Part shown: positions 21,201 to 52,600 of the stretch, in pieces
Numbering within the stretch: position 1 is the first letter of the stretch
Layout: every line of letters begins with the position of its first letter
NCBI RefSeq assembly: GCF_965638725.1
Contig: NC_134958.1
Span: 22,413,964-22,477,963 of the forward strand
DNA length: 64,000 nt
Origin: Aptenodytes patagonicus
Taxonomy: Eukaryota; Chordata; Aves; Sphenisciformes; Spheniscidae
Direction: 5' to 3'
Program-made: the position numbers and the translations under genes
The notes under the pieces: generated by a model
Seen by the model: the letters and a program-made list of their open reading frames with translations, nothing else
What the model was told of the DNA's origin: nothing
Databases searched by the model: none

Positions 21201-24200
21201 TCTTGATCCTGCCCCGGTGGAGCGAAAGCTTTGCTGGCAGCGCGGTGCCACTTAGGACACCCCAGCTGGGGCAGAAATGCTGAACTGTTAATGAAGGGGC
21301 ATTTTGGGGTGGGAAAAAACCAGCCCTGGCTCTTCCTGGAGTCCTCGGAGATAAATATTTCCCTGCTTTTCATTTGGAGCGGGCTGGGTGTGACTGTGGT
21401 TACTGTGGCTCAGCTGATGAATGATAACTTAAGGCTGGTAACATGATCACTCCCAGCCCTCCGTGTGTCTGAAATGATGCTGCTAGTGTGCTCTTAATCT
21501 TTGCAATAACACACCGAGACAAAATGGTGGCTGAGGAAAAAACGAAGCAGGCTGAGGACTGCGTTTACACAGGCTGGCCTTTTGGGAGGGACCAGCTCCT
21601 GGCTTGGGGCGGCTGGCTGGGATGGACGGATGGAGCCGCAGTGCGTCTGAACAGTTTGGAAACGTCTGTCTCTCTCTGCTCCCTGAAGGAACTGTCATCT
21701 CTGAAATGCAGGAAGAGGATCTGATGCAGTTTGTGAAATTACTGCTTTGTGGACTTTTCTGTCGTGGACAGGGAAGGGGTTGTTTAGACAAGGCAAGGAA
21801 AAGAGGATATGGTAGATATAAAATGACGGAGCACGTAGACCAAGCCTGATCAGGTTGCTCTTTATGTTTTCTTACATTTTCAGAGTTAGTAACTTGGTGA
21901 AATTGAAGGCAGCCCTTTTAAAGCTGAAAAAGTTTACTTTTTCTATCCAACATCTCATTAACCTGTGGGAATTGGTACCGTGAGCTAATGCATAACAGGC
22001 TTCAAAAAGAAAAGAGAGGGAGGGGGAAAAAAAAAATTACACTTACATGTATAATGAGGACATCTGCAGAGCTGAGCTGAACTCCTTTTCACTAAACAGA
22101 ATAAAACCCATTTATAAGGGCCATAAACTGCTCTGCTTCGGGGCATTAACCGAATCGCTGGCTGATGAGCAGTGGCAGAAGTCTCCCCTGTGGGTTGGGT
22201 ATTCCATAATTGTCCATTACGGCGCTTCGCAGGCTTTCCTGTAAAGGCTGGTGCTGACCATTGTGGTAGACAGGATACTGACCTCAGATGGACGGCTCTT
22301 TGATCCAGGACAGTATTTCCTATGCGAAATAAAAGCTTTGCTACGTCAGCGTTTTTCCCCCCTCTTCCTCTCCTTGCCTAAATCTCATTAGTTTGACCTT
22401 TTCAAACCCTGCGTGCTTTATCACTTTAAGGTGCTGCTAAAAGGGCACTATCAGGTTAAAAATCAGATTTTTCTTACCTCTGTTAACCCACAAGATGACA
22501 AAACTGAACAGGAAGGATAGAGCTGCTTCCCTGCCTGCCCCGTCTATCCTCGCAAGGGTGGAGCAGGACCTTGTTTTGGGCTCCAAGAGGTGCTTGGATG
22601 CCTGGTGCTTCTCCCAGCAGCCGCGAGGGTGCCTGGCTTTGCGGTGTCTGCAGTCGGGCACGCTGATGCCGCGTCGCACCGCTCGTTTGTTCGCCTCCAC
22701 CATCAACGCGATTTTCTCTGGCTTTCTCGCAGCGAGTTACCGCTCCAGCAGCTGGGTTGCAGTTGCTACCAAGGTACACGCGTGGCCTCGTCGGTGTGTC
22801 ATTTGGGAGCGTGTTCAGGGGAAAGGAGTGGGAGGGTGAAAATGCTTTGTGAGAGCAGGAGCTGTGGCAAAACGTTACGCACGTGCTTGTGAGGGAGGAC
22901 AGAGGTAAATGTACGTGGGGGAGGGAGATGCTCTCAAGTGTCACGTACCCTTTTCTGTCGCGGTTCCCAAGCGATACAGGATAGCAAATCCTGGGGAGTG
23001 AGGGAGCCGAATCCCGATGTACGAGTAGCTCGAGTTGCCTGGCTGCTCAGCCCCTTCCTGAGCACAAGCGATGCAGATTTTTATCTGCGATTGCCCTGGG
23101 AGCTCATAAAAAAAATGATTCCTCTGTGCTGCTCCCTCACCCCTAGGATTGAATAGTCCCTACTTCCCCTCTTTCTATTTTAGAAGTTGCTCTTAGCTGC
23201 AGGTTATTATTTGTCTGATAATTGCTTTTGCCCACAGGAAAGGATTTTTCATGAAAAGGACGTGCCATGTAGCTACACTTCTCTGGCTCGTTTACTCACC
23301 TATCGAGAGGCCTCAAGTCAGGCTACAAATAGAGTTGCCTGAATTTCCTATTAGAAGGAAGATCGATAGCCCCAACCCGCCGGTTTTCTTGGCCTCATTT
23401 TCTCTCTGACTCCATGTTTCCTTCCCCGCTGTTTCCCTGCAGGAACTCCCATCAATCGGATCCCCATCATGGCAAAGCAGATCCTGGATCTCTACATGCT
23501 CTACAAGCTGGTGACCGAGAAAGGAGGGCTGGTGGAAATCATCAACAAGAAGATCTGGCGAGAGATCACCAAAGGCCTTAATCTGCCCACCTCCATCACC
23601 AGTGCCGCATTCACGCTTCGAACCCAGTGAGTCCGGGAGGTCTAACAGCGTGGGTGTGAACGCAGAGTGGGGATCGGGGAGTGCAAAGCAGGGACTGGGG
23701 TGAAAAAAAACTAAGAGACTTCTACTCTGTGGCCAGGGAGGAGCTGATAAATTGCTTTATTTATCCCTCTCGCCCAAGACGTGCAGTTTTTCCTTTCTGT
23801 TCTTTCTGCTCTCGTTTTTCTTAGCAGCGATTCTTCCTGAACTCGTTCCCCTTCCACCCCTACGATCCCAGCGCTAATACGCCATCGCCTTGTTCGCTGG
23901 GCTCTGCGCCTCCCTCCGTCCTCTGCCTTTCTCGCCTCTTCAGAGCTTAAACTCCTCGGGGCAAGGAGGGTCTTGCTCTGTCTCTGAAGAGCGCTTGGCA
24001 CAGCGAGGAGGGAGGGAGGCCTCCTGATTTGTGGGCATCGAGTATGAACTTGATCATTTAATGTCTGTTATGGCTACTAAGTTGTGGAAACTTGCATTCA
24101 GCACCTACTTACTGTGAGGATGGCCTTTCTGACCTGCAGTACCTCACGTGGGTTAGGCAAGCAAAAAAAAAAAAGGGAAGCAAAAGTAGAATAAGCGGAG

Positions 24201-29522: not shown

Positions 29523-32500
29523 TGGACGGCCGAGCCTGCTGTCTCTCACACTGGCCTCCGGCAGCTCTTCCTCTCTGCTCTCGGCAGGGAGCGAGCCGGG
29601 AAGGAGTCGCACAGATTACCTCATCTCAAGGAACCTGCTTTTGCGGTTGGCCAACGGCAAGATGATGCTGAAACCTTTCCATGCCAGCGAGTTTTTCTTC
29701 ATCGTCTGTTTGTCCAGCCTTTTTCTTTGTTCTCCCCTTTCTTCCTCCCTTTTGCTTTTTGTTTTCTTCCTCCTCCTCCCAGGGTTTGCTGTGTTCCTGT
29801 CGGGGGGTGGGACATGGAGGCGGGGGGGGGGGGGGGGCATGCCTGGCGTTTTTCAATCAGGGATCGTCTCTAGGAGCTGCGGGTTGAGAGATGGCCGAGA
29901 CGTCACCAAGGCAGGTGGAAAGAGCTGTGGAGTTGGGGCGGGGAAACTTGGTTCTCCTCGAACCAGTAGCCAGAAGGACTCTTCCCACAAAACAACTCCG
30001 TGTATTGACAATCCTAAGAGCCGGCGGGATGCCTCGCCCCTGTCCTCCCGTGGCTTGTGGCGCAGAGGGCCGTGCGGCTGCAGAGCAGGCAAGCTTCCTC
30101 GCTTTTCTTCTTCGGGCTCTGTCGTGGTCCGGTGTTCGTATGTCCTCCCCTAGAACACGTGCTCTCGGCTCGTGAGCCTCCTTCCCCCTCTCCGAGCTCT
30201 TGGCAAGAGGGGAAGGACTTTCTCACCGCTACGTTTGACCCGCAGACACATTAGAAACCCCTCGCTCGGCTGCTTCGTTCTCCTGGCTGGTGCTGGCCTC
30301 TTCCCTACCGTTGCCTTCTGCAGGCTTTCAGCCAAGTTTTAAATGCCCTTGACCCTGTCTCTCTCTCCCCTTGAGGAACTCATCCCGGTGACGTTTACCC
30401 TGAGAGCCTGAACTTATTTTGGCTTGCTGTTTCGATCCTCTGCCCCCTTGACGCGAAAGGGCTGTCGTTTAGGTTGAGCTAGGCTTCCTGGAGCGACCTC
30501 CTTCTCGTAAGGTGTCTTTCGATAGCCCCTGGAAGCTCTCCACGTCCGTGCGCCGAGAAAACAGCAGGCGATATTTGAAATCCGATTCGGCGGGGCTGCG
30601 GGGGGGGGGGCGTAGGTATTGCGGTTAACGTGACAGGCGTATCTCCGTTGGTCTCTGAACAAGCCTCCAGACGCCCAGTCCCCTTCAAATTGTACGTGAG
30701 GAAAAAGAAAGCGGCTCTCAGTTGAGTAAGACCTTTCGCTCTCCTGGGTGGACGCAGAGGAAAGGAAATCAAGCCCGCCCTCGCCCTTTCCCCTCGAACC
30801 CCCAGGTGAAAGCAAACAAAGGCTGGCCCTGGCTCTCCTGCGTCTGGAGCCGACCGAGCTGACTTAGTGACTCCACGAACTCGGCTCCTGCTCGGGTGGC
30901 CTGATTCTGTCCTCTCTCCTCCTGCCGGCCTTTCCCACCTGTGCTTTCCCCAGCCTGGAGATCAGGTCCGAGCACCATCCTTCCTGCCCTGGTGACGTCC
31001 TTCCCATCCTCCAGGCCCAAGTCAGGTTTTTTTGAGCAGAAGAAATACCTCAGATATGTACTTGTTGTTGGGTTTTTTGTTTGTTTGGGGTTGGTTGGTT
31101 GTTTTTTTTTTTTTAACCTCTTCAGGAAGTATTGGCATATCTTATCGCTTGTTTTTTTATATGTGGTTTTGCTGACATTGTGGGTTGTTTGGGCTTGGTT
31201 TTTTTATTTTTAATTGTATCACCAAAGACAGAGAGAAAGCTGAGCAAAGGAGCAGTGGCTTCCCCGTCCTTTAGGCCAGCAGGAGACAAGCTGAACAGCA
31301 TTGTCCCAGGACATGTGCATGACACAGGAGGACAGGTAGAGGTAGGAAAAGAGGGCAAGAGCGACTGCTGACTTAGGTGATCTGTCTTTCCTGTTGGACA
31401 CAAAAGGTGTCTCCGAAGTCCCCGTTATTGCTCCGGGATCTGTGCTTACCTGGAGGAAAGCTGCTTAGCGCAGCTGGGAGGTGACGGCACTGCTTACGCC
31501 GCGGGTTGGCCAGGCCTCTCACAGGAACGTGGTTCCTGGCACCTTGAAAGCACAGCTCGGTCTGGCGGTGCTGCACCCCACCACCCTCCTCAGCCGCGCT
31601 GGGACTTCGCGTTATCCCAGACGCGGCTAATTCCGTCTGCGCTACAAGACTGAGCAGTCTTGGGTAGCCTTTGCGAGAGGCGCCAAAATAAGAAGTTATT
31701 CCCGTTTTTCACCCGTACGTAGGCGCCTGTGTGCCAGCCACCCGAGCTAGTAGCTACATTGCGATCCAAGCGAAAACCACGTTATAACTCCAGAGGTTCA
31801 GCCTGCTAAAAACCAGTTTCCTGGAGGGTGGTGGGTGAGTTGCCGTGTGTCATACCAGTGTGAGAGGAGCAGGTCGCCTTCTGTCTGCTCCCGCAGGTGA
31901 GCAGAGCCCTTGGGAGCATTTGGCTCCCCGCAGGATGGGAGGCTTGAGGCGCCGTTGCCGTTACAGGCTGTGCCTGCCCGCGCCGCTGAGCCCGAGCTCG
32001 GCCCAGAAGTGTCTGTCCCTTCCCTGCCCGGTCAGTTCTGCAACGCGCCGTGAGCAACTTAAGCCTGTCTTAGTGCTCTGTGAGGCTTCACGGGTCCGGG
32101 GGAGACGCCCTCCCGTAACACCTCTGGTTAGCCGTGGCGTGGTCCCTGTGCTCCCAGGACGTCCCTGCTCCCAGAAGCTGTTTATTTGACACTACTGAAA
32201 AGAGCGCGGCTTCTAAAAACACCGGGCCAGATACTGCCACAGGAAAAGCCCCCTCAGCAGCCCGGGGATCGGGCTTAAAAACGTACCGTCGAAAACGAAT
32301 AAGCCTTCCTTTAAATTCTCAAATGCCAGGTTCGCCTTTTTAATCCCGCAGCACTACTCGGCCGGGCTGCTGCTCTGTCCTTGAGAGCCCCGAGGTCTCG
32401 TGCTAAGGCTCGTGTAAAGGCACCTCCTCGTTTGCAAGAGGCTCTGGTGCTCTCTGTACGTTAGCTTACACACTGTGGCTTGAGTTATCCCGCTGCCCGA

Positions 32501-33161
32501 CATCGTGAGGGCTCGGTGGGAGGAAGAGGGAAGGTGGCCGAGCGTGCACATGTCCCGAGACAGACGCTGCTCCGAGACGTTCCCGCTCCGGCTGCTTTTA
32601 GCTGGAGTTGACGACCACCCGCCGGGCACGGGGAAGCCGAGCTGCTCTTTGGCCGCTGGGTGTTGGCGTGGCAGATCCTGCAGGCCTCCGCGGCGTTTCA
32701 CCCTCGCAGGCTCGGAGAGGGTTTTCCAGACTCCGGGGCTCATTCAGATTGGGCTTTTCTTCCCTTTTTTTTGTTTTCTTTTGGTTGGTTGTGGTTTGTT
32801 TTTGGTTGTTTTTTTTTTTCCCCTTTTATTTGGGGGTGGGTTTGGGGGCTGTTTCCTACGAGTGGGACTGGGGGACTTTTTGCTTTTCCTTATGCTTTCT
32901 TCTCTGGTCCTGGGGAGCAGAGGTTAGTAATGGGTGGGTTTGCTTATGTATCACATGCTAACATCGTGTTTTCTTGCACAGAAAGGCACTCGAATCACTG
33001 AACTGCTAAACAGCTTTGACACTACTAGAGTATTAATGTTTATAAGCTTTACACAACTAGACTGGAAATAGACAGGGACTAACAGATTGTTTTGTATCCA
33101 ATTCAGGGAAAGAATCAAGTCGGGATGTGTAACAGATACCTCAGTAAAAATAAGCTGCAAC

Positions 33162-33167
33162 AATAAA
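33162..33167 (+). terminator. Possible proximal poly(A) signal of ARID3B
   Basis: An AATAAA hexamer lies 3.6 kb beyond the ARID3B stop, followed by a modestly T-rich stretch. It could give a shorter ARID3B mRNA. Confidence 0.35.
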
Positions 33168-34130
33168 ACTGGTCCTTTCTCAGTACACGATGACAAGGAC
33201 CAGCCATTCAGACTGTGAAGAGTAACCCTTTCCCTGAGCCTGGCTTCCACGCTGGCAGCTGGCTTAACGCGCGTTTCGCCGAGCTCCGGATCTCCTACTG
33301 AGCTGCCGGGCTTTGGGGACAGGGTTATGGAAACCAGCAGCAGAGACGGGGCGGAGGAGCCGGGAGCCGGGGAAGGCTGAGCAGCGGTGGTGGATTTCCC
33401 CCCCCCCCCCCCTCCCCGGCTCCGCTTCATTTCACTCGACCGTGTTCGATTGTATAGTACTCAGGGGTTTTGATACTGCGGGTAGGACTGTTCCTCGTGT
33501 GAAGTGCTCCGCTTTGCAGTGTGGCTAATTCTTTTTCAACTCCAGACCAGCGAAGGTTTCGCAGCGAGCAGCCAAAAAAAAAAAACCACAAAGAAAAAGA
33601 AAAGCAAGCCCCCAGCTTGCTTCCCCGCAGCCTCGACGCTCCTCTTTCAGGGGGAGATCTGCCGGCTGGGTTCGATGCCCAGCTGCAGGGGGGGGGTTGG
33701 GGGGGGGGACCCGAAACCAAACCTGCTCGTCCTCTTCCAGCGGATCCCGGTTTATGCTGGGAAGGCACAAAGATTGTGAGCTGGGGAAGGGGGGGAAGAG
33801 GGGGAGGGAGGCTGCGCGCCTGCTCGGCTCCCGAAGTGAATGTGAACGTGTCACACCAAGTCCTTTTGGCCGCTGCGTGCGTGCGTGCGTGTGCTCCAAA
33901 CGGATTCAGATCAGAAGATGTTTTCACCAAACAGCTGCAGCAGCCTTGCTACTAGTTTTCTTACCTATTTAAAAAAAAGAAAAATTTAAAAAAAAAATAC
34001 AAAAAAAAAAAAAAGAAATGTGATAGCCTAGGCGGTGGATAAATACCTCAACGTCTCCTTCCAACAAGTGTCTGTATATGTTGTTGTTGGGTTTTTTCTA
34101 TCTTACACGTTATCTGAATGTTTATATTCC

Positions 34131-34136
34131 AATAAA
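34131..34136 (+). terminator. Likely distal poly(A) signal of ARID3B
   Basis: This AATAAA sits in a T-rich, UTR-like context (TATCTGAATGTTTATATTCC just before it) with T/G-rich sequence downstream. It is the last + strand hexamer before the GC-rich region that precedes the next gene. Confidence 0.5.
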
Positions 34137-34360
34137 CTTCTACCTCTTCACACGGTGACCCCCACCAGCCTGGTTTGTGGCCGTGCTGTTCTGCTAAAGC
34201 GCGAGTTAAAGATTCCCGGGCCCTTTCTTCATCCCAGGAAGCTGTTCCGGGAGGCTGGCTCAGCCCCGGTGAGCTCCGTGTCCTTCCAGGTCTTTATGCT
34301 CCCGGTTTGTACCTTCGTGGGGAGAGCTGGGCTGTAAAGCTGGACCGGCTTCTGGGACAG

Positions 34361-34560
34361 CATCTGGGTAGGAAAGCCCAGCCCCACGGCGTGAGACACC
34401 GCTTGCTTTTCTCTTTCAAACATTAAGATCCCTTTATCGAACCCGGCTCAGGCTCTGGCAGAGCTTTGTCCAGCCCCTGTTTCCACAATCCCTCGCTGCA
34501 GGGCCGGAGGCGAAGCCGGCTCCAGGCACGGGGAGGCTTTGCACCGGCACAGCGACGTTT
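34361..34560 (+). repeat. Copy 1 of a 200-bp dispersed duplication
   Basis: It is nearly identical to 36459-36659. I count two A/G substitutions and one inserted base, and similarity stops abruptly at both ends (starts CATCTGGGTAGG, ends CAGCGACGTTT). It lies about 230 bp past the ARID3B distal poly(A) signal. Confidence 0.9.
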
Positions 34561-35834
34561 TGGAGCGGTGGCCAGAAATGAGCTGGGTACCTGTTGGGGT
34601 GAAACGGTCCGGCTTCCAGGTCGGATGCTGGCTGGGAAACCCCCTCCACGCACCTCTGGGGGAGAACAGGCGGTAGGCGCGAGTTACACCCGCGTCTCCT
34701 TTCCCAGGTGTTGCCCTGCGTCCCTTACCCGGCTCCGCGAGGGCCGGGGCAGGAGCCACTCTCCCAAATCCCTCCTGTGTCACCGCCTCCTCCGCGCAAA
34801 AAAAGGACGTTTAATGCTTCCCAACGGTCTTGCTATTTGCACAGCACCCGATGATGTTTTTCCAGGCATTGAACCGGTTCGGCGGTCGGAGAGGAGCTGC
34901 CTTCCAGCCCTTTTCGTACCGGCGCTTCCGAAGCCCCGGTGCCTGCATTCGTTTTGGCCGGCGGCCCGTCTGAGGCTGCTGGGCCGGGGCCCGGCGCGCG
35001 ACCTTCCCCGCCTTCACGCCAAACTCGCCCCGTCCCCGTGCCACGGGGCGGGGAAACCTTCTCCCCTCCTGCTGCCTGCACCTTGCCCCACGCCGCCCGC
35101 CGGCCCCTCCATCACTACGGGAGACCCGCCTGTGGCTGTGAAACACCCGTCCGAGGGTGATGGCTGTGCCGGGCCTGCAGCACACGTCAGCACGGCCTCC
35201 CCGCGCTCGGATCCACCCCGGGGCTTCCTCGTCTTGCCTTCCGTGGCCGGGATGCTGCAAAACAGCGAGTTGCGAGTGCTTCGAGCGTCCCCGCTGCCTC
35301 TCTGCGGAGGCTGGAGGAGCCTCTCGCTGCTAGACGGGCGCGGAGGAGCCACCCACTGGCCCCAAAGCTGACGTGAAAACGGAGACGCCGAGAACCTGCT
35401 TTTTCCTCCCCTCTTCGCAAGCCGGGCAAGTCCCCGAGCTCACACCACGGGGCCTGGCCGCTGGCTGAGCCCGCCGCAGGCAGGGGATGCGGCTGGTGCC
35501 CGTCACCAGGGCTGCAAAATTCAGCTGCCGGTCGGCGTCTCTGCTGATTTCACTCCACGCTGTGCAAGAAGGACCGTGCCTGTGTTTTACGGCCACCCCG
35601 AGGAGCCCGGTTATCAGAGGAGAGCGGGCTGGCGGAGCCGCTCGCCTCGCCTGGGCTCCGGTCCCAGCCTGTCCGGCCAGCTGGCAGGCGAAGGCAGAGC
35701 CTTTCCCCCCCGCGTTTCCTCCCCTCCTGCCCGCCGCCGGCTTCGGCTTTTCCCGGCTCCAACTTTTCCCCACGTGCGCTCAGCCGAGACGGCTCGAGGA
35801 CTCGCCTGCCCTCGCCGCTCGCCTTAAAAGCCAG
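34561..35834 (+). promoter_or_regulatory. GC/CpG-rich region, probable promoter of the synaptotagmin-like gene
   Basis: This is a dense GC- and CpG-rich stretch with no recognisable protein in any frame, ending at the candidate first coding exon at 35835. Position and composition suggest a CpG-island promoter, but no TATA box or transcription start can be placed. Confidence 0.4.
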
Positions 35835-35847
35835 ATGCCTGAAGCAG
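35835..35847 (+). CDS. Candidate first coding exon of the synaptotagmin-like gene
   Basis: ATG CCT GAA GCA G ends at a near-perfect donor (GCAG|gtaagg). The leftover G joins TG of the next exon to make Val, giving MPEAVHLQVFLGAG..., a short polar N-terminus before the anchor as in other synaptotagmins. The ATG context is weak (C at -3) and the exon codes only four residues, so this is inferred from phase and position, not homology. Confidence 0.45.
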
Positions 35848-38800
35848 GTAAGGTGGGTTCTGGCAACGGCGGGGAGCGAACGCCCTCGGTGTGCGCTGCC
35901 GGGGGGTTTATCCACCGGCAGCCCTAAAATCGGAGGTGGGACGGTGCCGGCCCCCGGTGCCGGGCCGGAGGAGGGTCTCCCCCCTGGCTGCAGGGGTGCT
36001 CGGAGACCTGAATTCGGGTGAGGCGGGGGGAGGAGGGTGCTCCGTGGTGGCCACCCCAACCTCACCGCCGCGGTCCGGGACATCCCTGCAGCCCTCCCAG
36101 CCTCCGGCCCCGTTACCTGCTTGGTGCAGCATCCTCCAGCCCGGCTGCCCCAGCACCCAAAAGCAGGCACCCAAAGGGATGCGGTACACCTTCCCCGGCC
36201 CTACAGACCCGTGTGCGTCTGTGCGCCGGGGGTGGCCACGCTCCAGCCCTCCCAACTTGCTTTCCCAGGGCCGGACGGCCACGGGCGTCGGCAGCCGTTG
36301 TTTGGGCTGGAATATAATAATCCTCCAGGCAAGTTGACATCCCAACCCCCTTCCCTCCATCCCTCCCCTAAATGCCGCCATTCACTGCTCATCCCCGCCG
36401 CAACCTGGCTTCCCTAACAAATAACAAAGGGCTAAAGAGAGCCCAGCGCGGATTAAAGCATCTGGGTAGGAAAGCCCAGCCCCACGGCGTGAGACACCGC
36501 TTGCTTTTCTCTTTCAAACATTAAGATCCCTTTATCGAACCCGGCTCAGGCTCTGGCAGAGCTTTGTCCAGCCCCTGTTCTCCACAATCCCTCGCTGCAG
36601 GGCCGGAGGCGAAGCCGGCTCCGGGCGCGGGGAGGCTTTGCACCGGCACAGCGACGTTTGCATCGGCGCTTGTTGCCCACCTCTGCAACCCAAGTTTCCC
36701 AAGAAACTCCGGCCCTGACGTCCAGGAGTTTGGTTCCCCGGTCCTTAAATGACCAATGTGCAGAGATGCCTCCCTGCTCAGCTGCCGGGCAGCCCGAAAC
36801 CCTGCGGGCATCCCCGCCGGGAGGGATAAAGCCCAACTCATCGCCCGCAGGACGCCGGTCCTCTGGGCACAGCTCGGGGAGGAGGTTCCCCCTCTTTCAG
36901 GGCCAGGCTTGGGTATGTAACGCCTTGGGGACTGCTGCCGCTTTGAATCCAGGTCGGACACCCCCAAATCCCACCCCCTTGCAGGTGCCCCCGCTCCCCT
37001 CCAGCGGCGCCGGTGCCTCCCCACGCGTTTCGTGCCCCCGGCCAAGCAAGCGGCCAATCGTCGGTCGTGCCCAACCTGCGTCAGCCCGGCAGCGGGGCTG
37101 ATAACTGCCGCTTCTTCCACAGCCCTTATCGTCCCCGGGGTGAGGCCGGGTTTGTTTTAGCCTCACCAGAGCCGGACTGATGTCAGGCTGCCGGCGCCCG
37201 CAGATGCCGAGCACGGTCCTGGCCCTGACGGCTCCTCTCCCACCTTCCCGCTTCAGGATGCTCCAGTTCAACCCCGGCTTGCAAAGATGGGGGGTGGGTC
37301 ACGGGCATGGCAGGGGAGGTGGGCACCCAGGTCTTGCTCTGCTCCGTTGCTCCATCACCCTTGGAGAGCCACGGCGGTGCAGCCCTGGCGAGATCCGCCG
37401 TGCTAACGGTGCCCGTCTCCCTCCCCAGTGCATTTGCAAGTCTTCCTCGGCGCAGGGCTGGCCCTGCTCCGCCTCAGCATCCTCCTGGGCTGCGCCGTGT
37501 GCTGGCGGCACCGCCGGCACCCGGGCCCCCGCCTCGGCTGGGAGCGGGCGACGGTGGAGCTGGGACCCGCTCTGCCCGCCGGGACAGTGCCGGTGCCCAT
37601 CCAGCGGCACTATGAGGAGGTGGCAGGAGAGGTGCTGGGTGCCTGGGCGGAGGAGGGTCCCCCGGCGTCGCCGGCATCCCACGGGGGCTTGCTCCAGGGC
37701 AGAGGCTCCTTGCCCAGCCTCCCCTTCCCCCCAAAGCCGGCGGGAGCCTGGCAGCACCGCTGCACCATCTCTGGAGCCAACCTCCTCTGCAAAGAGGAGA
37801 GCCCGCTGGTCCACCCCATCCCGGGACCCCCTGCCCCGCTGCCCCCCAGCACCGGCCCCAAGCAGTGGCCCCGGCTCCACTGCGACTTGTTCTACTCGCC
37901 AGCCGAGGCCACGCTCACCGTGATGGTCCTCGGCATCTCCCACCTGCCCGAGGGGCTGCGGGGCAGCTGGGGCTCCTACATCAAAGTGTACCTGCTGCCG
38001 GGGCTCCCGGCGTCCCGGCAGGCGGCATTGCAGCGCGGCAGCCTCCACCCTGCCCGCCGGGAGCAGTGCCGGTTCGGCCGGTACAGCCTGGAGGAGCTGA
38101 GGAGCTTCACCCTGCGCTTCGCCGTCTACGCCAGGTTTCGCAGCCTCAAAGACTCCTTCGTGGGAGAGGTCCTCTTCCCCTGCGCTCAGGCCGCCTGGGA
38201 CCCGCAGGCATCTTCTCGCTACAGCTGGGAGCTGTCGAGCACCAAAAGCACGCTCAGAAAGGTCAGGAAGGCAGCGGTCTCCAGCGGGAGGGGTTGCCCT
38301 CGTGTTTTGGCTGAGGTCCGCTTGGTCTCAGAGCCCTAAAGCTCCACGGTGAGAGCCAGAGCCTCCTCCAAGCATCACCCGGTGGGAGGCGGCGGGAGGG
38401 ACTGAAGGTGCTGTAGGCAGCAGCCCCCCCGTCCCCCGCGGTGTCCTCCCTCCCGGTGCAGGTTCATGAGCAATTAATATCCATCGATCCCTCCCGGTGC
38501 AGGTCCATGAGCCGCCCGCAGTTAATATCCATCAACCGTAGCGACTGGCGGCGTCTCTGCCTGGGGGGCGTCGCTGAAGATGGGGGTGCTGGGGGTGGAA
38601 GGGTTAAAGGCCAAGCTGGCGCCATCCTTACGGTGACGGCAAACATCGAATTCACCTTCCTGACTCGTTTTTGCCCGTTCTCGACCCACCCGCCGCACAG
38701 GTGGGAGACGAGCATCCCCGAGTTGGAGGGGATGAGGTTGGAGAAGGTTTCGCGGCGCCTCCTGCCCTCTCGTCTCGCTGCGGTGCCCCAGCGCCCACGG

Positions 38801-40070
38801 CCCGAGCCGCAGCCTCCTCTCCTGCCCCCCCCCCCCCCCCCCCCGCATCCCTCGGTCAGCTCTTCCTTCTCCTCCGGTGCCAACCTCTGGCCGGCCGCAT
38901 CAAGGTGCTGGTCCGCAAGGCAGAGCACCCGGGCCGGCCCTCGCGCATGCCGGGCACGCCAGGTAGGGCACCGGGCATGGACGGGGCGGGGGGGGGCAAG
39001 GAGATGCCCAGGTGGGCACGGGGAACGGCTTCCCCTCCTTTTGCTTGGCGGATAGCCTTATTGCCTCTTGAACTTCTCTTTTCTAAGCAAAACGAGGGCA
39101 GGTAGCACAGCTGGGATCTAGACATCTCCGATATGGCCCCAAAACGCTTAAAATATACGTATTTATGGTAAAAAAAACCAGCATGTGGCTTTCTGTCCTG
39201 CTGGCTGTTGTCACCTCTGGCTCCCCCGGCCCCTGCAAAGCCTGGGATGTGGGCAGGGACGGGAGCTGAGGACTTTGGAGGTCCTTGCTCCCAGCCAGGG
39301 AGGGGTAGGTGCAACCAAGGTGGACAGCACGTCTCCGTCCTCTCCCCACAGCTCCGCAGAGGTCTTGTAGACCCCCGGGCACCCCAGTTTGGCTGCCCAC
39401 ACCATGCAGGAACCTGGCTCGCGAACCTCCAGCCTCCCTCCCTGGTGCGTGCCCAGAGCAGGTCCCTCTCACCAAGGCTCTGTCTCCGTTTCCAGGCCAC
39501 TGCGTCATCATCCACCTTTACCACAACGGCCACGTCATCGACAGCGAGGAGACCAAGTCCATCACCGGCTACAACCCCGTCTGGAACACGCCCTTCCTCT
39601 TCAACCTCCCCGCTGGGGACATCCAGCAGCAAGAGCTGTCCTTGGAGTTCACCGTCATGCAGGTGAGCAGGACGGAGGTGACCACGGCCAAGAAGGTGGC
39701 TTGGATCACCCACGCTCAGGAGCCTCTCCTGCAACCAGGGGTCTCAGCCCCGGCTTGCGGGAGGGGTACAGGCAAGCCCGGAGGAGCTAGTTCTTGCTGC
39801 CCACAGGAGGTTGCTGGGGTGGGATCGGTCTTCTTGGGGCAAGGGGTCTTTCTAGCTCTGCTATGAAGGCCATCAACCATGTCCCACACCACTTCTGCCC
39901 CTCTCCTGCCACAGGCTCGCATCTACACCCGCAGCTCCCCGCTGGGCCACGTACAGGCGGGTCCCCGCGCCCCCGGGGCCGGGCTGCTGCACTGGAAGGA
40001 GATGTGCAGCCGGGGCCAGCTGGAGTCGGCGCGGTGGCACCGGATCCAGCCCGACCCTCTCGGACCCTGA
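35835..40070 (+). CDS. Synaptotagmin-family protein (membrane anchor plus two C2 domains)
   Basis: Exons are read as 35835-35847, 37429-38261, 38860-38962, 39496-39662 and 39915-40070: 1272 nt, 423 aa, all phases agreeing. A hydrophobic anchor (about residues 9-30, ending in Cys residues and WRHRRH) is followed by a Pro-rich linker and C2A (about 153-275, with YIKVYLLPG and VGEVLFPC). C2B follows (about 283-410, with GRIKVLVRKAEH, YNPVWNTPFLFNLP and LEFTVMQ), then a C-terminal RWHRI close to the WHxL motif of synaptotagmins. Such proteins act in membrane trafficking and exocytosis. The usual Ca2+-binding Asp residues of both C2 domains are missing, so Ca2+-independent binding is inferred. Length and anchor resemble SYT15 (421 aa in human), but I cannot assign orthology. 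Exon 1 and the acceptor of exon 3 are the least certain parts. Confidence 0.82.
35848..37428 (+). other. Synaptotagmin-like gene, intron 1
   Basis: GC-rich intron carrying copy 2 of the 200-bp duplication (36459-36659). Many long open frames occur on both strands as expected of GC-rich DNA, and none is recognisable. It ends with a pyrimidine-rich acceptor (gtctccctccccag). Confidence 0.5.
36459..36659 (+). repeat. Copy 2 of the 200-bp dispersed duplication
   Basis: Direct-orientation partner of 34361-34560, about 2.1 kb away and roughly 98% identical by hand alignment. Flanks are unrelated on both sides. It lies inside the first intron of the synaptotagmin-like gene. Confidence 0.9.
37429..38261 (+). 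CDS. Synaptotagmin-like exon 2: anchor, linker and C2A
   Basis: This 833-nt exon follows acceptor ctccctccccag and ends phase 0 at CTCAGAAAG|gtcagg. It codes for the transmembrane anchor, a Pro/Gly-rich linker and the whole C2A domain (HCDLFYSPAEATLTVMVLG through VGEVLFPCAQAAWD). An 8-strand C2 pattern is visible (LTVMVLG, SYIKVYLLP, FTLRFAVYARF), but loop 1 reads LRGSWGS and loop 3 YARFRSLKD, lacking the Asp set. Confidence 0.85.
38262..38859 (+). other. Synaptotagmin-like gene, intron 2 (with alternative acceptor at 38700)
   Basis: It contains a two-copy tandem duplication (38447-38533) and ends in a 20-C run plus gcatccctcggtcag|. A second acceptor, cgccgcacag|GTGGGA at 38700, is in the same frame and open through the poly(C), which would add 53 residues (a Pro/Ala-rich insert). 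The short form is preferred because it gives the normal C2A-C2B spacing. Confidence 0.55.
38447..38533 (+). repeat. Two-copy tandem duplication (about 40 bp unit)
   Basis: 38447-38485 and 38488-38533 share TCCCTCCCGGTGCAGGT, CATGAGC and TTAATATCCATC in the same order; copy 2 has a 7-8 base insertion. It lies wholly in the intron. Confidence 0.75.
38860..38962 (+). CDS. Synaptotagmin-like exon 3: start of C2B
   Basis: This 103-nt exon codes LFLLLRCQPLAGRIKVLVRK and AEHPGRPSRMPGTP, aligning with the 'LxxSLCYxPxAGRLTVxVxKAxxL' start of synaptotagmin C2B domains. It ends phase 1 at CCA G|gtaggg. An upstream acceptor at 38700 would lengthen it in frame. Confidence 0.75.
39496..39662 (+). CDS. Synaptotagmin-like exon 4: C2B middle
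   Basis: This 167-nt exon (acceptor ccgtttccag, donor ATGCAG|gtgagc, ends phase 0) codes HCVIIHLYHNGHVIDSEETK, then ITGYNPVWNTPFLFNLPAGD and LSLEFTVMQ. This is the typical C2B 'KxxLxxNG...KKT...NPxxNExFxFxVP' strand pattern. The preceding intron (38963-39495) and following intron (39663-39914) hold nothing recognisable. Confidence 0.85.
39915..40070 (+). CDS. Synaptotagmin-like terminal exon
   Basis: It codes ARIYTRSSPLGHVQAGP, then LLHWKEMCSRGQLESARWHR and IQPDPLGP, stopping at TGA 40068-40070. The LGHV...HWKEM...RWHRI order matches the 'IGkvxvG...HWxdMl...xWHxL' tail shared by synaptotagmin C2B domains. Confidence 0.88.
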   Translation, partial: ARIYTRSSPLGHVQAGPRAPGAGLLHWKEMCSRGQLESARWHRIQPDPLGP

Positions 40071-41135: not shown

Positions 41136-42640
41136 ATGCAGACCATGGCGAGGGTCATCAAGGTGAGGATCGTCATGGCGAGGACTGTCATTGTAAGGAT
41201 CGTCATTGCGGGGATCGTCATGGCGAGGAAGGCCATGGCGAAGAAGGCTGGGGTGAGGTTGGCCACGGTGAGTATAGCTGCGATGAGGAAGGCCCAATGG
41301 TGACAAAGGTCATGGTGAGGAAGGCCATGGCAAGACAGACCACAGGGAGGAAGACCATGTTGAGGGTAAGGATGGCCGCGGTCAGGTACGCCATGGTGAG
41401 GAAGGCCATGGCGACAAAGGCCGTGGTGAGGATGGCCATGGTGAGAAAGGCCATGGAGAAGGCGGCCATGGTGAAGAAGGTCATGGCGGGGAAGGTCATG
41501 GCAAGGAAGGCCATGTTGAGGGTGAGGATGGCCACGGTGAGGTAGGCCATGGTGAGGTAGGCCATGGCGAGGAAGGCCATAGCGAGGAAGGCCATGGTGA
41601 GGAAGGCTGGGGTGAAGTTGGCCACGGTGAGGATAGCTGCAATGAGGAAGGCCCAATGGTGAGGAAGGCCATGGTGATGATGGCCATGGTGAAGATGGCC
41701 ACGGTGAGGGCGGCCATGGTGACAAAGGTCATGGTGAGGAAGGCCATGGCGAGGCAGACCACAGGGAGGAAGACCATGTTGAGGGTGAGGATGGCCGCGG
41801 TGAGGTACGCCATGGTGAGGAAGGCCATGGCGACAAAGGCCGTGGTGAGGATGGCCATGGCGAGAAAGGCCATGTTGAGGGTGAGGATGGCTGCGGTGAG
41901 GTACGCCATGGTGAGGAAGGCCATGGCGACAAAGGCTGTGGTGAGGATGGCCATGGCGAGGGTGGCCATGGAGAAGGCGGCCATGGTGAAGAAGGTGATG
42001 GCGGGGAAGGTCATGGTGAGGAAGGCCATGTTGAGGGTGAGGATGGCCACGGTGAGGTAGGCCATGGTGAGGTAGGCCATGGCGAGGAAGGCCATAGGGA
42101 GGAAGGCCATGGTGAGGAAGGCTGGGGTGAAGTTGGCCACGGTGAGGATAGCTGCAATGAGGAAGGCCCAATGGTGAGGAAGGCCATGGTGATGATGGCC
42201 ATGGTGAGGATGGCCATGGCGAGGGTGGCCATGGTGACAAAAGGCAGACCACAGGGAGGAAGACCATGTTGAGGGTGAGGATGGCCGCGGTGAGGTACGC
42301 CATGGTGAGGAAGGCCATGGCGACAAAGGCCGTGGTGAGGATGGCCATGGTGAGAAAGGCCATGGAGAAGGCGGCCATGGTGAAGAAGGTGATGGCGGGG
42401 AAGGTCATGGCAAGGAAGGCCATGTTGAGGGTGAGGATGGCCGCGGTGAGGTAGGCCATGGTGAGGAAGGCCACGGCGAGGCAGACCACGGGGAGGAAGA
42501 CCATGCTGAGGGCGAGCACGGCTGTGGTGAGGTACGCCGTGGTGAGGAAGGCCGCGGTGAGGGTGGCCACGGCGAGGAAGGCCATGGTGAAGGTCACGGC
42601 GAGGCAGCCCGCGGTGAGGCAGCCCGCGTGGAGGTGCGGA
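41136..42640. repeat. 1.5-kb minisatellite (15-bp unit, higher-order structure)
   Basis: About 95-100 tandem copies of a 15-bp unit, approximate consensus AGGAAGGCCATGGTG, with variants such as AGGTACGCCATGGTG and ACAAAGGCCGTGGTG. Longer units of 17 bp (AGGAAGGCCCAATGGTG at 41286, 41645 and 42160) and 21 bp (AGGGTGAGGATGGCCRCGGTG) recur in the same neighbour order, showing larger blocks of several hundred bp copied by unequal exchange. Because 15 is a multiple of 3 and the unit lacks stops in most frames, long open frames appear on both strands (up to 459 codons). These are repeat artefacts, not genes. Confidence 0.93.
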
Positions 42641-49600: not shown

Positions 49601-52600
49601 AGTGTCAGCCAGCAATAGCCTTTCGCTTCAAATTTCCATGTGGTACTTAACTACTGGTCAGGCGGCATAAATCTTTGGCAGACCTTTGAGCTCAGAGCTT
49701 TGTTGGGACCCAGCAATGACTAAGCCTCTTAACACGTGAAAACATGACGGGAGTAACTGGCACGTGCCCTCTCTCTGCGGACTGAGGACGTGCGTACGTA
49801 GGCTCTTTCTCTGACTCCATCCTTTTGTCTCTTCCCTTACAGAGGCAAATCTCAGGTGGCGCTGAAAATCATAAAAAATGTTGGAAAATACCGAGAAGCA
49901 GCCAGGCTGGAAATTAACGTCCTGAAAAAAATCAAAGAGAAGGACAAGGAGAACAAATTGTAAGTTCCTGCGAGGCTCCCGGGTCGTCGGTACCCAGGTC
50001 CTTACAGACAAGCGGTCTGCTTGGGTGACGTCCAAAGAAATACAGGGCTGAGGACTGGAATACCTGGAATGCTTGTCTCCTGTGTGGGGGAAAACCTGCC
50101 TCGTGCCTCTGCGTTTTGGAAGAAGAGAGTCTGTCTCTAGTTCTACTCAACACTTGTTTACTTAAACTTTTAACGACTGACGTGCCAGGTCATAGTGAGG
50201 AAAAAAATTAGCTAGACCTTCTTCTCTAACAGCCACCTGCTGCCTTGTCCCACTTGAATTGGAGATCTCTCTCTAAAGGTGGTTGAGCAAGGCGGGGAGG
50301 GGGTGTCTCCGGTGTACACAGAGGGATGACTGTGCTTCCGAGTCGGCTGGCTCAGAGCTTTTGCTCGCCAACCGCTTCTGAAGTAGCCAACGACTGGGAG
50401 AATGACTGTTCTGTCGAGTCCCTGGATGATGGTTAATCCTCGTGTCTCTCTCTGCGCAGCTTGTGCGTCCTGATGTCAGACTGGTTCAACTTCCACGGCC
50501 ACATGTGCATCGCCTTTGAGCTTCTGGGCAAGAACACTTTTGAGTTCCTGAAGGAGAATAACTTCCAGCCATACCCTCTCCCTCAGATCCGGCACATGGC
50601 CTACCAGCTCTGCCACGCCTTGAGATGTAAGTCACCCGGGGCCAGCCTTGCTAGGCGACGATGTCTCGCCAGAATGGGTCGGGAGGGAGCTGAGGAGGAG
50701 TTGGCTTGGCGCTTTGATGGGCAGAATTGTACGGGTGCTTCAGCGTGTCGTTCTTACATGTATTTTGTTCTCTCTCCTCTTTGCCACCTGTGCAGTTCTA
50801 CACGACAACCAGCTGACTCACACTGACCTCAAGCCAGAAAACATCTTGTTCGTCAACTCAGATTTTGACACTCTGTACAACGAGAAAAAGGTGGGTTATG
50901 TCCAAAAGAGCAGTGAATAGACCAGGAATAGCCTGCCTTTCCCTCCCTGCAGAAATTGCATCTTCCCTGTTCTGTACGTGCCCCACAGGGCCTTAGAAGT
51001 CTGTTTAGTGGGAACAAACTGGAAGTCGGGCCTCTTCTTTCTCCGGTGCCTTCTAAAAGCCTTAAGACTGCTTCAGGGGCTCCAGTCCATGAAATGGCGT
51101 GTTCGGTGGCTTTCCTGAACACTGATCTGAGATGTAGAGAGCTCAGAGCTTCACAGTTATAATCCTTTTGATTAGTAGTGCAGACGTGGCAGTTCTGGGG
51201 TCAGAGAGCTCCTCTCAAAGCCTAGCTTAATCCTGAACCAGCTATTAGAAGCACTGAGGACTTCCTGTTTGCTTGCAGAGCTGTGAGGAGAAATCCGTTC
51301 GGAACACGAGCATTCGTGTGGCAGACTTTGGAAGCGCCACCTTCGATCACGAGCACCACACCACTATCGTGGCTACCCGGCACTACCGTCCACCAGAAGT
51401 GATTCTGGGTGAGTACTGCAGGGCTTTGGGGAGTCTCAGACGGGTGGAGGAGAACAGTTGTCCCAGGAATGCCGTAGGATGCTGCTGCCTAGAGGAAAAC
51501 CGGCTTGAGAAGCACTCCAGTTCTTGGGGATAACCTGTTCCATGCATTGCTGCAACACCACCTCAGCGGTCCCAAGCTCCCGATTGTATGGAAGGTGTTC
51601 GTGGATAGTGCAGGCCCTTGACGTGGAGTGCAGAGAGCTGAGGAAAGCCTGTGAGACTCGGGAAGCGCTCAGATTGGCTCCAGGGGAATGCACAGTCAGC
51701 GTAAGCTGAAACAGAAGCAGCTGGGGGAGACAGGCTGGGGGATGAAGGGATTGAGAGCGGCCCTGCCGAGAAGGGCTTGGGGGTACTGGTGGATGAAAAG
51801 CTGGACATGAGCCAGCAATGTGCGCTCGCAGCCCAGAAGGCCAATTGTATCCTGGGCTGCATCCAAAGCAGCGTGGCCAGCAGGTCGAGGGAGGGGATTC
51901 TGCCCCTCTGCTCTGCTCTGGTGAGACCCCACCTGGAGTCCTGCGTCCAGCTCTGGAGCCCTCAGCACAAGAAAGACACGGACCTGTTGGAGCGGGTCCA
52001 GAAGAGGGCCACGAAAATGATCAGGGGGATGGAACACCTCTCCTGTGAAGAAAGGCTGAGAGAGTTGGGGTTGTTCAGCCTAGAGAAGAGAAGGCTTCGG
52101 GGAGACCTTATTGCAGCCTATCAGTACTTAAAGGGGGCTCATAAAAAAGATGGGGACAAACTTTTTAGCAGGGCCTGTTGTGACAGGACAAGGGGGAATG
52201 GCTTTAAACTAAAGGGGGGTAGATTTAGACTAGATGTAAGGAAGAAATGTTTTACGCTGAGGGTGGTGAAGCACTGGCACAGGTTGCCCAGAGAGGTGGT
52301 GGATGCCCCATCCCTGGAAACATTCCAGGTCAGGTTGGACGGGGCTCTGAGCAACCTGCTCTAGTTGAAGATGTCCCTGCCCACGGCAGGGGGGTTGGAC
52401 TAGATGACCTTTAGAGGGCCCTTCCAACCCCAACTGTTATACGATTCTGTGACTTGACGGTCCTCTTGCCAGTGTGCAGCACTGGAAAGTGCAGAGATAA
52501 CCTCTAGGTCTGTCTTTGTGTAATCCCTGCGGTTTCAAGAAGGAACTAGCAGAAATCTGGTGGGACTTGTTGGGAGCGCAAAGTTAACTTGATTCTCTTT

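Follow-up and report, generated by a model that had tools for sequence, protein, structure and literature searches.

A strongly diverged synaptotagmin gene beside CLK3, probably a third member of the SYT4/SYT11 group

The locus described here raises the question of where a synaptotagmin gene lying between an ARID3-type gene and CLK3 comes from, and what its product might do. To our knowledge, human has no synaptotagmin at ARID3B-CLK3, and a synaptotagmin at this location was not described in the literature searched (titles and abstract starts of open-licence papers only). The window, by which we mean the whole stretch of 64,000 nucleotides that was analysed, corresponds to C10:22413964-22477963 of a 1.35-Gb assembly in 618 contigs, apparently that of a bird. 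The candidate gene spans positions 35835-40070 of the window on the plus strand, with the ARID3-type gene upstream and CLK3 downstream. The features on which the analysis rests are as follows.

23370-23627, plus strand: frame with an ARID exon, upstream neighbour of ARID3 type (Pfam ARID, 5.9e-13; PDB ARID3A, 3.3e-33)
35835-35847, plus strand: exon 1, coding part, MPEA and the first base of codon 5, followed by a phase-1 intron (donor CAG/GTAAGG)
37429-38261, plus strand: exon 2, with the anchor, the linker and the complete C2A in one exon (C2 match in frame, 24.6 bits)
37440-37505, plus strand: predicted transmembrane anchor at approximately residues 9-30, followed by the basic RHRRH (hydropathy 2.08; topology inferred from the sequence)
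37872-38225, plus strand: C2A, about residues 153-270, acidic at 0 of 5 Ca2+-ligand positions (PDB and paralogue alignments)
38860-38962, plus strand: exon 3, opening part of C2B, between a phase-0 and a phase-1 intron (spliced frame)
39496-39662, plus strand: exon 4, middle of C2B (spliced frame)
39915-40070, plus strand: exon 5, remainder of C2B with the tail and the TGA stop (spliced frame; matched by the SYT4 C2B query, E 0.33)
40035-40046, plus strand: WHRI, residues 413-416, a WHxL-like C2B tail motif (aligned with the WHxL of the paralogues)
51258-51530, plus strand: frame with a kinase exon, downstream neighbour CLK3 (PDB CLK3, 4.3e-23, ahead of CLK2, 2e-16)

The PDB matches to ARID3A upstream and CLK3 downstream bear out the placement in the ARID3-CLK3 interval that a preliminary description of this DNA had given. 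Judging from its position, the upstream neighbour is probably ARID3B, not ARID3A or ARID3C. Between the synaptotagmin gene and CLK3, at 41144-42634, there is also a large minisatellite whose 15-base units are degenerate, with 87.5 copies in 41219-42590 at 68% matches.

When joined, the five exons gave a reading frame of 1272 nt, encoding 423 aa followed by TGA, with no internal stop. All four introns were GT-AG, with phases of 1, 0, 1, and 0. In 30001-37400, the exon 1 ATG was the sole candidate with a donor scoring >6 within about 160 nt, the required phase, and no stop between the two. On a textbook matrix, the donors of introns 1 to 4 scored 7.4, 3.2, 4.9, and 7.2, that of exon 2 being weak. 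The GC content at codon positions 1, 2, and 3 was 0.68, 0.53, and 0.88. Long frames were also present elsewhere in this GC-rich stretch (342 aa antisense), and open-frame length is therefore weak evidence; the case is carried instead by homology, together with the agreement of the splice sites. In a neutral simulation with 300 replicates per level, the open frame was kept in 5% of copies at 0.1 substitutions per site, and stop-free copies numbered 2/300 at 0.2 and 0/300 at 0.5. The gene is confirmed as a real sequence feature, and the earlier account is borne out in so far as it describes five exons in a consistent frame, two C2 domains, an anchor, and a WHxL-like tail (WHRI).

Exon 1 is flanked by the two copies of a direct repeat some 202 bases long, at 34359-34560 and 36457-36659, 2.1 kb apart; it comprises 123 identical bases and then 79 at 97%, has sharp borders, and may represent a recent duplication, gene conversion, or an assembly effect. 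A run of about 20 C at 38825-38844, in intron 2 just 5' of the exon 3 acceptor, is noncoding and may mark a spot where the assembly is weak.

The 423-aa product matched Pfam C2 over two stretches (E 8.4e-14), and the exon 2 frame by itself exceeded the cut-off of 22 bits. In a phmmer search of PDB, residues 153-418 aligned to SYT1 C2AB with an E value of 7.3e-20, the top match among the 56 distinct PDB sequences listed at E <=1. The top 19-residue hydropathy windows (mean of 2.08) began at residues 9 and 10. At the other end of the protein, the W and H of the tail motif were invariant in an 8-row alignment; WHxL is the motif that ends synaptotagmin C2B. Two introns conserved in synaptotagmins were present, one of phase 0 at the C2A/C2B junction and one of phase 1 before PYVKV. 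A SYT1-type Ca2+ trigger has ten acidic coordinating positions, and 0/10 were acidic in the window protein, all being nonacidic or gapped. The C2B lysine patch was likewise replaced, reading HVIDSEETK. The earlier view that both C2 domains are diverged was supported, and the divergence is strong, with about 23-30% identity per domain to SYT4/SYT11 and the Ca2+ ligands gone. The overall order of an N-terminal anchor and then C2A and C2B in tandem is the synaptotagmin architecture as given by Craxton (2010; PMC2823689).

Relatives of the gene were sought in its own genome by protein search. The whole-protein query returned 21 matches at E <=10 (37 candidates scored), four of which were the gene's own exons. 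The nearest nonself match was to the C2B of SYT4 on C33 and C34 (E 2.3e-7, 33%), followed by a SYT3-type C2A (8.2e-5), SYT11 C2B (8.7e-5), a SYT10-like C2A (0.0086), and SYT13 C2B (0.013). A close second copy of the gene was not found in the 1.35-Gb genome at this search sensitivity. The rest of the family was located with the SYT4 C2B query, which gave 58 matches at E <=10. The paralogue names used here are labels given by resemblance to the human proteins; the genes labelled SYT4 and SYT11 form a pair with 62% mutual identity in C2B. Single C2 matches in long open frames of 478 and 696 aa were also seen at C10:19784509-19784796 and C25:6123205-6123495, possibly representing another duplicated C2 family. 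A search for vertebrate copies carried by contamination of prokaryote genomes gave 16 pattern matches and 0 relatives.

The exon layout of the gene pointed to a particular pair among these paralogues. In SYT4 and SYT11, a phase-1 intron lies just before the anchor; the anchor, the linker, and the whole C2A share one exon; C2A and C2B are separated by an intron of phase 0; and another, of phase 1, falls at the codon that precedes PYVKV. Up to mid-C2B, intron order and phases (1, 0, 1) are the same in the window gene. Among 13 sampled paralogues, a set that leaves out SYT1, SYT5, SYT6, and SYT12, the anchor and whole C2A were in one frame only in SYT4 and SYT11. The other 11 were SYT2-type, SYT3-type, SYT7, SYT8, SYT9, SYT10, SYT13, SYT14, SYT15, SYT16, and SYT17, and in SYT2, SYT7, SYT8, and SYT15 the C2A itself was split over exons. 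Ahead of C2A, hydropathy peaked at 2.16 in SYT4 and 2.39 in SYT11, compared with <=1.64 in SYT3-type, SYT9, SYT10, SYT17, and SYT7; in the C2A frames of the remaining paralogues (SYT2-type, SYT8, and SYT13-SYT16), the absence of an anchor was judged by eye. The window gene departs from the pair further on. An extra phase-0 intron interrupts its C2B after residue 372, where SYT4, SYT11, SYT13, SYT14, and SYT16 have none, and the SYT4/SYT11 trait of a second C2B half in a single last exon is accordingly absent. In the other sampled synaptotagmin types, the C2B intron was located at different places. Each duplicated synaptotagmin group, including SYT4/SYT11, has a common and distinct gene structure, according to Craxton (2010; PMC2823689).

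The neighbourhoods of the same genes were then compared. On C26, SYT11 (267062-272254) has an HCN at 416337, a CLK at 423233-423821, and a SCAMP at 428893-429897, at distances of 144, 151, and 157 kb, respectively. This CLK is the one closest to CLK3, with 73% identity; the remaining two reach 67% and 59%. The corresponding distances from the window gene on C10 are 11 kb to the kinase exons of CLK3, 110 and 154 kb to SCAMPs at 22.56 and 22.61 Mb, and 536 kb to an HCN at 22.99 Mb. C33 and C34 each carry SYT4, HCN, and SCAMP, with an ARID match on C34 too, and C25 carries HCN, SCAMP, and an ARID match; judging from score, the ARID matches on C25 and C34 are probably ARID3A and ARID3C. All HCN matches (5/5) and all SCAMP matches (22/22) fell on C10, C25, C26, C33, and C34, and the SYT4 C2B search located 0 other synaptotagmins on these contigs and none at all on C25. 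Some of the 12 ARID matches lay on other contigs; the CLK genes on C12 and C6 fall outside the four-way set; and the linkage of SYT4 is loose, at 4.8 Mb from the ARID3-type match and 12 Mb from HCN. The chance of any of 15 other loci lying as near the C26 cluster was about 0.0035, a value obtained post hoc, the radius itself having been taken from the data. The window gene is located within the HCN-CLK-SCAMP-ARID3 four-way set, three members of which carry a synaptotagmin, and the linkage is the kind that two rounds of duplication leave. The preliminary description had left the origin between a lineage lost in mammals and gain by translocation; by linkage, an old copy kept in place is favoured and translocation is disfavoured.

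SYT4, HCN, and SCAMP were each found on both C33 and C34, and their scores on the two contigs were the same or close. This is suggestive of sex chromosomes with a long common stretch, as in ratites.

Sequence comparison was less directive than layout and linkage. A tree of 15 rows (265 columns, several rows only partly filled) placed the window gene weakly with SYT14/SYT16 (35/68). The window row had the longest branch of the 15 (2.45) and a deviant composition, carried a long-branch warning, and had no supported place. Grouping it with SYT4/SYT11 was 1.7 log units below the best tree (AU p 0.154). The AU p values for other partners were 0.132 for SYT13, 0.20 for SYT12, 0.44 for SYT15, 0.044 for SYT2/8, 0.049 for SYT3/9/10, and 0.019 for SYT7, over eight groupings with p uncorrected and SYT17 left out. 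These tests disfavour SYT7, SYT3/9/10, and SYT2/8 as partners (p 0.02-0.05, uncorrected). Residues matched by one group only numbered 11 for SYT2/8, 8 for SYT13, 7 for SYT4/SYT11, and 6 for SYT14/16, and C2A identity to the window protein was 34/120 for SYT2 and SYT3-type versus 28/121 for SYT4/SYT11. A SYT4/SYT11-like residue signature (LYH, HWKEMC, and others) was considered as support and dropped, as the private-match counts do not favour SYT4/SYT11. The sequence is neutral among the diverged synaptotagmin types. The resemblance to SYT15 in length and anchor layout suggested by the preliminary description was not supported. A separate gene, labelled SYT15-like by its resemblance to human SYT15, is present at C5:2089-2096 kb; its C2A is divided among exons, the intron in its C2B falls about 7 residues further on, and orthology to SYT15 was rejected for this reason; the tree did not join the two specifically, and the AU test did not reject them as partners.

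Because the common exon layout and the HCN-CLK-SCAMP linkage both point there, we assign the window gene to the SYT4/SYT11 group with a probability of about 0.7, as a third member, an ohnologue retained beside CLK3 from the genome duplications of early vertebrates and now far diverged. The exons, frame, C2 domains, ligand loss, layout, and linkage were computed; common descent with SYT4/SYT11 is inferred. In the proposed history, the early duplications would have left a copy of the SYT4/SYT11 group next to CLK3, and this copy would then have diverged very far, losing all ten Ca2+ ligands and the C2B lysine patch. If expressed, the gene most likely encodes a small protein of vesicle or Golgi membranes. 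Its predicted topology has a single anchor, with a very short N-terminus on the lumenal side and the linker and both C2 domains in the cytosol. With all ten ligand positions and the lysine patch changed, such a protein would be expected to act in membrane trafficking as a Ca2+-independent tether or adaptor, not as a Ca2+ trigger. Ca2+-independent trafficking steps are considered likely for synaptotagmins with degenerate Ca2+ sites in a review, which also reports an Asp-to-Ser change in the C2A of SYT4/SYT11 (PMC8164606), and SYT11 and SYT13 are termed calcium-insensitive modulators of insulin secretion in another paper (PMC9541707).

It is possible, if unlikely, that the gene is instead Syt18 or Syt19 of Craxton (2010), an independent old lineage and not an ohnologue of SYT4/SYT11. 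According to that paper, neither occurs in mouse or human, and both are uncharacterised and show poor conservation; Syt18 retains tandem C2 domains in Anolis, and Syt19 is confined to vertebrates (PMC2823689). However, Syt18 is also listed there in sea urchin, amphioxus, and limpet, unlike a vertebrate ohnologue, and the neighbours given for stickleback SYT19 are MYH3C, CALB2A, NLRC5, and HARBI1, with CLK3 not mentioned in the passages concerned (PMC12776057). Syt19 could itself be a SYT4/SYT11 ohnologue, in which case both readings would hold. C11 as a place for a Syt19 was rejected, as none of four C11 stretches compared matched the window protein below E 0.3; by eye, their C2 pieces look like other C2 proteins.

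We consider it highly improbable that the gene is a diverged copy of SYT13, SYT14/16, SYT12, or SYT15 moved in by translocation of an intron-bearing duplicate. Although the best tree joins it to SYT14/16, the AU test rejects none of the other three, and SYT13 shares 8 private residues with it, each of these genes is present elsewhere (C3, C5, and C7), those sampled differ in exon layout, and C3, C5, and C7 gave 0 HCN or SCAMP matches; a retrocopy is ruled out by the introns. SYT13, considered as the source on account of a motif, was discarded for its other exon layout and its lack of HCN/SCAMP linkage. There is only a very slight chance that the gene is a decaying pseudogene or unexpressed relic, as its long branch and weak exon 2 donor might suggest, but five exons intact across 1272 nt, a GC3 of 0.88, a retained C2B tail, and the rarity of stop-free copies under simulated neutral drift all speak against decay.

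The broader statement, on which we are evenly divided, is that vertebrates had a third SYT4/SYT11 gene beside CLK3 which survives in at least one bird-like lineage, lacks the Ca2+ ligands and the C2B lysine patch, is the fastest-changing synaptotagmin sampled in its genome, and is missing from mammals. If true, such a lineage would possess a Ca2+-independent trafficking factor of its own, the absence of which from mammals has yet to be explained, and this would raise the question of what use a bird cell has for a protein that the mammalian cell does without. The synaptotagmin count is usually put at 17, from mammals. A further ohnologue of known position would fix the origin of SYT4 and SYT11, and the gene would offer a natural case of a C2 tandem with a predicted complete loss of Ca2+ binding. 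The locus may also be the home of Syt18 or Syt19, groups listed in 2010 and little mentioned since in open-licence papers.

Compared with known synaptotagmins, the window protein shares the tandem C2 domains of SYT15, which also has a short lumenal N-terminus and a similar length. SYT13 and SYT14/SYT16, which are of a diverged, Ca2+-independent type, resemble it in this respect and are compatible with the tree, but their C2A exons lack an anchor and they are located on C7 and C3. SYT4/SYT11, which form group 2 of Craxton (2010), share with it the anchor-linker-C2A exon, phases 1, 0, and 1 to mid-C2B, the tandem C2 domains, and the WHxL-like tail, and SYT11 has a matching HCN-CLK-SCAMP neighbourhood. 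In contrast, SYT4/SYT11 retain most Ca2+ ligands (with Asp-to-Ser in C2A) where the window protein has none, lack its extra phase-0 intron in C2B, and differ in the C2B lysine patch, which reads KRISKKKT in SYT4 and HVIDSEET in the window protein. Syt18/Syt19, likened here by description only, are similarly diverged, uncharacterised, and absent from mouse and human, whereas the invertebrate members of Syt18 differ from what a vertebrate ohnologue would show (PMC2823689), and stickleback SYT19 has other neighbours (PMC12776057).
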